Positions 1,416-64,000 of a stretch of DNA of 64,000 nucleotides are shown here, piece by piece. The DNA comes from Lamellibrachia columna (taxonomy: Eukaryota; Annelida; Polychaeta; Sabellida; Siboglinidae), in assembly GCA_963662155.1 (NCBI GenBank), contig OY759268.1, positions 9,478,868 to 9,542,867 on the forward strand, read 5' to 3'. Within the stretch, counting starts at the first letter, position 1, and every line of letters starts with the position of its first letter. A program made the position numbers and the translations under genes. The notes beneath the pieces were generated by a model. The model saw only the letters and a program-made list of their open reading frames with translations. It was not told where the DNA came from and ran no database searches.

Positions 1416-1538
1416 GTTATTATGAAGATGATCGCTCTGAACCCTGGTGGCTACTGGCAGAGTCGACGCAATCGCTTTGACATGTTCGTCACGTTTCTTG
1501 GTGTCATCTGGATCTTCATGCATTTCACCCTGAAAGCG
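1416..1538 (+). CDS. NALCN: NALCN exon: domain IV S1-S2 region
   Basis: Forty-one codons, phase 0 at both ends, starting [15 protein letters not shown] and ending HFTLKA. Acceptor tgcag at 1411-1415, donor gtatgt at 1539. The reading frame runs on into the intron to a stop at 1848 because the following 45-bp array copies this exon end. Confidence 0.95.
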
Positions 1539-4500
1539 GTATGTACCAACGCACTACCTGTATTTCACCTTGCAGGAGGCATATATCAGCCAGACACCCC
1601 ACCTGTATTTCACCCTGAAGAGGGTATATACCAGCCGGACACCCCACATGTATTTCACCTTGCAGTTGGCATATACCAGCCTGACACCCAGCTGTATTTC
1701 ACCCTGAAGAGGGTATCTACCAGCCAGACACCCCACCTGTATTTCACCTTGCAGTTGGCATTATACCAGCCTGACACCCAGATGTATTTCACCCTGAAGA
1801 GGGTATGTACCAGCCGGACACCCCACCTGTATTTCACCCTGAAACATTAAATGTCCCTCCTCAATCTGAGTTTTTCGCTTGTCTCATTTTAGGCTCGTTT
1901 CAAACCTATCCACAATGATATACTATCTAGTATCCACAATGATATACTATCTAGTAACCATGATGATATACTATCTAGTATTCATGGTGATATACTATCT
2001 AGTATCCACGGTGATATACTATCTAGTATCCACGACAATATACTATCTAGTATCCACGATGATATACTATCTAGTATCCACGATGACATACTATCTAGTA
2101 TCCATGAAGATATACCATCTAGTATCCACAAAGATATACCATCTAGTATCCACAAAGATATACATCTAATATCCACGAAGATATACCATCTAGTATCCAC
2201 GAATATATACCATCTAGTATCCACGAAGATATACCATCTAGTATCCACAATGATATACTATCTAGTATCCACAATGATATACTATCTTGTATCCACAATG
2301 ATATATTAGCTCGTTTGTATAATTTTTTACTTAGGTTTGAAGAACTATTAAAAAATCTGCAGAAAAATGGCAGCAACTGCACATAATACTATTGACACAC
2401 TACAGACTTGAACATCAACAGACCTGATCTGTGATGGGCTGAATCAGTTGAAGAGCAACTTTTAATTGCAAATGTTGGTAACAGTGTAGCTGTGGATTTG
2501 ATTCAGAATAATTGTTGTGCAGTATTTTCCTGACCATCTTGGATTGAAATGTACATAATCATGTATCAGTAATTGTGCACAGATACTCCATACAAACTGT
2601 CCACAATTTATTAATAAAACAAATTATTTAAATTATTTATTTTATTCGATTGTTTCAGAGTGACCTCAGCAACCCGTTCGGCTACACCATCATAGTACTG
2701 AGATTCTTCACCATCACTGGAAAACATGTGAGTCTGCCTCTCTATACTGACATCCCCCAGTACGCAGCCATGTAGGGTACAGGGTTCCTGGGTTCATAAT
2801 GAAATAGATATCTCTCTCTGCTTCATGCTCATTTCGCCTACTGTGGGTTTATGGCTAATTCTGAGACAGATTCCCAAGTTTGCCTACTGCCCAATTAAGG
2901 CCTGCTCTCTGAGTGACTACACTTAAATCACTTGGCCTACCAGTCTACTTAAGGCCTTCTCTCTGTGTGACTACATTGAGATCTCTTGGCCTGCCAGCCT
3001 ATTTAAGGCCTGCTCTCTGTGTGACTACACTGAGATCTCTTGGCCCACCAGTCTACTTAAGGCCTGCTCTCTGTGTTACTACACTGAGATCTCTAGGCCT
3101 GCCAGCCTATTTAAGGCCTGCTCTCTGTGTGACTACACTGAGATCTCTTGGCCTGCAAGCCTACTTAAGGCCTACTCTCTGTGTTACTACACTGAGATCT
3201 CTTGGCCTGCAAGCCTATTTAAGGCCTGCTCTCTGTGTGACTACACTGAGATCTCTAGGCCTGCCAGCCTACTTAAGGCCTGCTCTCTGTGTGACTACAC
3301 TGAGATCTCTTGGCCTACCAGTCTACTTAAGGCCTGCTCTCTGTGTGACTACACTGAGATCTCTTGGCCTACCAGTCTACTTAAGGCCTGCTCTCTGTGT
3401 GACTACACTGAGATCTCTTGGCCTGCAAGCCTACTTAAGGCCTTCTCTCTGTGTGACTACACTGAGATCTCTTGGCCTGCCAGCCTATTTAAGGCCTGCT
3501 CTCTGTGTGACTACACTGAGATCTCTTGGCCTACCAGTCTACTTAAGGCCTGCTCTCTGTGTGACTACACTGAGATCTCTTGGCCTGCAAGCCTACTTAA
3601 GGCCTTCTCTCTGTGTGACTACACTGAGATCTCTTGGCCTGCCAGCCTATTTAAGGCCTGCTCTCTGTGTGACTACACTGAGATCTCTTGGCCTACCAGT
3701 CTACTTAAGGCCTGCTCTCTGTGTGACTACACTGAGATCTCTTGGCCTGCCAGCCACATGGTTTGGCTTCATTTAGCAATTAAGTACACAGTAGCTTTGC
3801 AGAAAGAGTTTTTCTTGAGTTAAGTTTAAGTTCTTTTTGTGTTTAGGAAATGTTGTCTATAAATAAATAAATAAATAATAAATAAGAGGACGTAGATTTA
3901 ACTCAAGAAAAACTCTGCAAAGTATATTTTACATTTACCAATTTTTTACAAGTATTAAATTTAAATGGTGATTTTGGTGGGAGAGGAGCTATCCTAATGC
4001 AGAGTAGGTGAAGTGGGAATAATATCAGTATATGCACACAGAGAGGGTGAAGCACTGAGAGGGGGCGAAATGGGAGAGCTCTCCATATGCAGAATAGGTG
4101 AAATGGGAAAAATATAATATCAGTAAGCAAAATGGGAGTAGACGAAATGGGGATACCCCTCTCTCTACAGCTGACTTTTGTCTCTAGATACAGTGTCACC
4201 ATAGACACTGTAGCCTTGTTACTGTATGCAGGTGTCAATGTCACGACCAGTGTGGAGCATGGTTTAATGTTGATGGTGCTAGTGTCATGTCATTTTAGGC
4301 TACCCTGAAGACACTAATGTTTACAGTGCTGGTGTCCTGTGATTGTAGGCTACCCTGAAGACACTAATGTTGACGGTACTCGTGTCGATGTTCAAGAGTT
4401 TCTTCATCATCATGGGCATGTTCCTACTCATGCTGTGCTATGCCTTCGCTGGGGTCATCCTCTTTGGCTGCGTCAAGTACGGGGAGGACCTGGGCAGGTC

Positions 4501-63738: not shown

Positions 63739-64000
63739 CTGCAACGGAACCAAGAAACACATAACCACACTCTTTAGTCGGACGCTATATGTCAAGTACA
63801 ATGGATCCAAGAAATATATAACCACACTCTTCATTCCGACACTATCTCTCAGCTGCAACGGAACCAAGAAACATATAACCACCCTCTTCAGTCTGACACT
63901 ATCTTTCAGATGTAACGGAACCTAGAACATATAACCACACTTTTTATTCTCGCACTATCTTTCAGCTGCAACGGAACCAAGAAATATGTAACCACCCTCT
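63700..64000. repeat. 57-bp minisatellite seeded by a mesothelin-like acceptor
   Basis: tctttcagctgcaacggaac (exon start and acceptor, reverse strand) recurs at 63731, about 63788, 63843, 63901 and 63958 and runs off the window. Frames remain open through the copies. Confidence 0.92.

Follow-up and report, generated by a model that had tools for sequence, protein, structure and literature searches.

Mirage minisatellites at exon-intron junctions in an annelid genome

Tandem arrays built from the edges of exons, with a GT or an AG in the copies, recur in three genes of a 64,000-nucleotide stretch of genomic DNA (C8:9478868–9542867, in an assembly of 880 Mb and 30 contigs; the whole stretch is referred to here as the window). 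They raise the question of whether splice junctions attract such arrays, or are simply places at which ordinary tandem duplications are tolerated.

Exon-edge arrays in three genes

The window contains 59 non-redundant arrays with a unit of at least 9 bp, as reported by TRF. Exon-edge tandem copies with GT or AG are present in eight of the nine intervals for which a sequence-only reading had claimed them, in NALCN (transcribed rightwards), ATG3 (leftwards) and a third, leftwards-transcribed gene. Dinucleotide-shuffled controls (one shuffle per 10-kb region, 20 sampled regions) gave no TRF rows with a period of at least 9, and the arrays are therefore not due to chance.

NALCN is represented by its last 11 exons (1416–18043), which join in frame to the stop codon and one of which matched all five solved sequences listed, each named as a sodium leak channel. 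In this model the donor edge of the exon at 1416–1538 is the source of a degenerate array at donor 1538, which occupies 1521–1843 (1521–1850 in the sequence-only reading, whose intervals are given in brackets hereafter) with a unit of about 45 bp; TRF reports 1556–1843, the start at 1521 is taken from the sequence, and the copy search finds three further GT copies with 26% mismatch. The acceptor at 4348/4349 is spanned by 2.5 copies of a 50-bp unit at 4265–4391 (4266–4348), and the donor at 9146 by 11 copies of a 41-bp unit at 9125–9575 (9131–9562), each found both by TRF and by copy search. One more TRF array (13892–14018) abuts the NALCN acceptor at 14020/14021 without overlapping it, ending 3 bp short.

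The eight ATG3 exons (25684–38363) are also in frame to the stop codon, and ATG3 homologues were found. Acceptor 27995 lies in 2.4 copies of a 49-bp unit at 27972–28092 (27970–28100), and donor 30055 in a degenerate array of about 50-bp units with 31% mismatch at 29893–30097 (29885–30055). The 111-bp exon at 33021–33131 has a mirage array at both ends: 24 copies of a 26-bp unit at 32398–33045 (32405–33020) at donor 33020, and 12 copies of a 26-bp unit at 33123–33441 (33132–33435) at acceptor 33131. TRF and the copy search both detect these two arrays and those at acceptor 27995 and donor 30055. The ATG3 arrays probably arose in place, judging from their likeness to the adjacent exon edge. The ninth interval, 25195–25690, had been read as another splice-site array, but it covers the coding end and stop codon of ATG3 instead and resolves into two degenerate 21-bp arrays at 25203–25400 and 25482–25701; the second, which extends to the 3' side, covers the last codons and TGA in the last exon (25684–25765) and no splice site, according to TRF and the gene model. 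Elsewhere in this region, a recent-looking 429-bp tandem duplication (26008–26875, 97% match) encloses a 40-bp array in each copy, and long leftwards open frames with a reverse-transcriptase-like motif, recognized by eye, occupy 34262–37536 in the ATG3 intron between the exons bounded by 33131 and 38243.

The third gene is represented by a leftwards exon at 63598–63738, an open frame flanked by AG and GT at the window end. Its acceptor at 63738 lies in an array of 57-bp units at 63708–64000 (63739–64000), which is cut by the window end. The pieces of this gene gave no Pfam match that names it; we take it to resemble stereocilin-like proteins. A leftwards segment at 46395–46823 matches EF-hand_7 (4.4e-10) and is part of a further gene.

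The arrays span exon-intron boundaries, and in gene models that use the outermost site both NALCN and ATG3 are open to their stop codons; they are "mirage" minisatellites.

Array density at splice junctions

No clear excess of arrays at junctions can be seen from the window alone, whose genes are too array-rich to reveal one. TRF arrays strictly overlap seven of the 36 NALCN and ATG3 junctions, or six when junction 30752 is set aside, where the sequence, read by eye, is a low-complexity repeat within the coding exon 30642–30752; about 4.3 overlaps are expected at the collapsed array densities of 12.5% and 11.5% in the NALCN and ATG3 gene regions.

Outside the window we used profile-found kinase and myosin exons, a sample confined to two gene families but chosen without regard to arrays. 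Six of the 213 listed exon rows were omitted for low score or many stops before arrays were inspected, and 207 were taken; 94 exons well inside 56 fetched loci provided 168 internal edges at which a splice site was called. The calls were made by a script that applied consensus weights. Fourteen overlaps were first tallied, one of which merely abuts its junction, leaving 13 of the 168 edges (7.7%) inside a TRF array, spread over 11 of 42 gene clusters. The expectation that exon-edge arrays occur elsewhere in this genome is thus borne out, and both junction types carry them (7/87 donors and 6/81 acceptors, with the one abutting donor dropped).

Whether 13 is an excess depends on the baseline. 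With each array counted once, arrays amount to 3.0% in 20 regions, 2.6% in the 56 loci and 3.3% in intron sequence 100–600 bp from the same junctions, so that about 4.4–5.6 of the 168 edges are expected in arrays (P = 0.004 against 3.3%, P = 0.0006 against 2.6%). Raw TRF coverage (14.6–16.6%) was rejected as a baseline because it is inflated by long arrays, and junctions would appear depleted against it. The excess over array density proposed in the sequence-only reading therefore holds at two- to threefold over arrays counted once (P 0.0006–0.02) and fails against raw coverage, below which the junction value lies. Counting each array once, in place of raw coverage, provides a way to test for a junction excess.

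A gene-level bootstrap, run when 14 overlaps were counted, gave P = 0.006, and excluding the 44 edges from matches with an internal stop leaves 10/124 with the abutting one included (P = 0.005). Among added exons, a filter that disfavours arrays gave 0/42 edges in arrays; the same search without the filter gave 15/51 and was rejected, all 15 being copies of the query exon in its own array, and when 18 edges lying 5 kb or less from the exon used as their query are set aside, 0/33 are in arrays. With 33 further edges the count is 13/201 (P = 0.018 or 0.003, depending on the baseline). A stricter, collapse-based count gives 11/168 (P = 0.009), for which the locus bootstrap (P = 0.03) has an interval of -0.002 to 0.071 that just includes zero. 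Taken alone, the myosins (P = 0.084), the acceptors (P = 0.17) and the later 20 loci (P = 0.25) are not significant, with small counts in each.

The peak in array coverage lies no more than about 40 bp from the junction. From 1.1% in the exon at 41–60 bp from its edge, coverage rises to 7.7% over the five terminal exon bases; it is 7.5% over the 20 adjoining intron bases and 2.6–3.1% beyond 100 bp, and only one of 99 exon midpoints lies within an array. The excess at junctions, two- to threefold when measured against collapsed density, is modest and could reflect a hotspot, preferential expansion or preferential retention.

Array anatomy and origin

The position of the junction within the repeat unit is uniform (KS p = 0.94, n = 21, comprising 13 sample and eight window arrays, the start of one window array having been set by eye), as random placement of the duplicated segments would predict. 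Neither this placement nor the array on the ATG3 stop codon supports the proposal that the splice junction itself triggers duplication. Unit length agrees with random placement too, with a median of 57 for junction arrays and 54 for all arrays, the latter being length-biased; sampled junction units are mostly 30–100 bp.

Inner copies largely keep their splice signals, as is characteristic of mirages. GT or AG is retained in 146 of 168 detected inner copies (seven of them from one abutting array), in a copy search with a threshold of 66% identity to the junction, which favours copies with an intact site. Per-base mismatch does not exceed 0.065 at GT/AG and is 0.095 elsewhere, with no sign that the splice signal is lost faster. 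For 18 of the 21 arrays, the median score of the inner sites, a measure of predicted strength, is within 0.5 of the true site or above it. An exception is an array with a unit of 34 (locus L023), in which only 8 of 21 copies have GT. At a kinase exon in the sampled locus L028, an array at positions 7022–7537 of that locus has 68-bp units that carry an acceptor and about 40 exonic bases; several of its copies also have a donor-like GT, and each copy could resemble a small exon.

The reading that we favour, and that is probably correct, is that the arrays are random local tandem duplications, tolerated since the outermost copy still works. Short tandem duplications would arise all over an array-rich genome, and where the segment straddles a junction the outermost copy, with the complete exon and its splice site, would stay in use; the inner copies would then lie in the intron, presumably neutral and with no visible harm, and the array could grow by slippage or unequal exchange. 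Tolerance was one of the options in the sequence-only reading, and it fits the random junction position, the intact inner GT/AG and the stop-codon array, which is an edge without a splice site of the kind that tolerance predicts. Together with the matching units these observations favour random, tolerated duplication, as do the intact NALCN and ATG3 frames and the nearly array-free exon middles. Counting against tolerance in its pure form, it predicts the baseline at most, whereas 13/168 junctions are in arrays against 3.3%, and at the sampled loci both copy number (median 8.1 vs 3.1 in other arrays, p = 0.012) and GC (0.47 vs 0.40) are higher in junction arrays.

These same differences are what a hotspot would account for, in which some property of exon edges (base composition, transcription or R-loops, chromatin) raises the rate at which duplications start or arrays expand. 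The junction excess and its narrow peak are consistent with it, as are arrays of at least three copies, which are about fivefold enriched (12/168 vs 1.4%, P = 5.6e-6; 12/201, P = 3.4e-5) under a threshold set after the higher copy number of junction arrays was known, and without which the excess is the two- to threefold one. We consider a hotspot unlikely, given the uniform breakpoints around the junction, the non-significant subgroups and the stop-codon array, which indicates that splice sites are not required. The broader proposition, that junctions in this annelid lineage are hotspots of minisatellite start or expansion and that a sizeable minority of genes has many intact sites of similar predicted strength, is possible but doubtful; were the hotspot reading true, splice-site choice would have to depend on position and not on site strength. 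An excess with random breakpoints, as observed, would also follow if arrays originate evenly and are lost more slowly at exon edges, where selection on the exon would act against deletion of a whole array with its flank because the splice site would be removed. However, junction arrays show no greater divergence than other arrays (median match 93% vs 91%, p = 0.22, a comparison of low power with n = 13 vs 147), and so are not clearly older, which argues weakly against such retention and leaves it a quite improbable explanation of the arrays.

Intron birth is a further alternative, in which duplication of an exon-internal AGGT segment created introns, as in the Rogers model discussed in PMC4974935 and PMC3087553, and the arrays are what remains of it. 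The arrays do carry AG and GT, but at the seven NALCN and ATG3 mirage junctions no array touches both ends of the same intron, and no unit supplies both intron ends; as the origin of the arrays it was rejected, and we regard it as most improbable.

Known mirages and the host genome

Mirage minisatellites are described from amphioxus Adh3, with somatic instability (Canestro et al. 2002, as cited in PMC3087553), from the lancelet globins BflGb6 and BflGb9 (PMC3087553), and from lancelet PGBD5, with Adh and troponin C also mentioned (PMC3902484). The lancelet cases resemble the present arrays in being tandem repeats across an exon-intron boundary, at donor or acceptor, with many AG or GT copies, and their reported units (10–72 and about 150–160 bp) include most of the annelid unit lengths. 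They differ as single cases, whereas the annelid arrays occur in several genes of one window and in an exon sample, and are known here from genome sequence alone. Intron gain by tandem duplication, as covered in PMC4974935, includes the Rogers 1989 model, a potato RdRp in which the duplicate includes intron-exon structure, and a mention of 24-bp AGGT repeats in fission yeast. These share with the present arrays tandem copies that carry splice signals; unlike them, the multi-copy arrays adjoin existing junctions, and no window intron beside a mirage is spanned by one array.

No annelid mirage was found in the literature searched, the scope of which left most subscription journals outside, and in the main text available of the Ridgeia genome paper (PMC9921365) TRF is used and the word minisatellite is absent. 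The present arrays suggest that mirages are not a lancelet oddity. If they are common in this annelid, they provide natural rows of decoy splice sites, a resource for studying splice-site choice by the spliceosome where strengths are similar, and for asking whether junction duplication feeds intron sliding or intron gain.

The sequence-only reading had suggested a cephalochordate, amphioxus, as the source of the window. On its sequence relationships the host is identified as an annelid, in or near Siboglinidae, and not an amphioxus, so the present arrays have no bearing on amphioxus. The window ATG3 has 89% identity to one transcript and only 70% to Branchiostoma floridae (tree of 37 rows). 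Among the matches listed, the best named match to the mitochondrial COX1 of contig C30 is a Siboglinidae cluster at 86%, followed by three sequences at 80% and then by the next named ones, polychaetes at 78%; a tree built from 23 selected rows of the 120 listed places COX1 with Siboglinidae at 100/100 support. It differs from the ENA protein P0121 at 30 positions, 27 of which are M/I or S/R, as expected if the two are read with different genetic codes.
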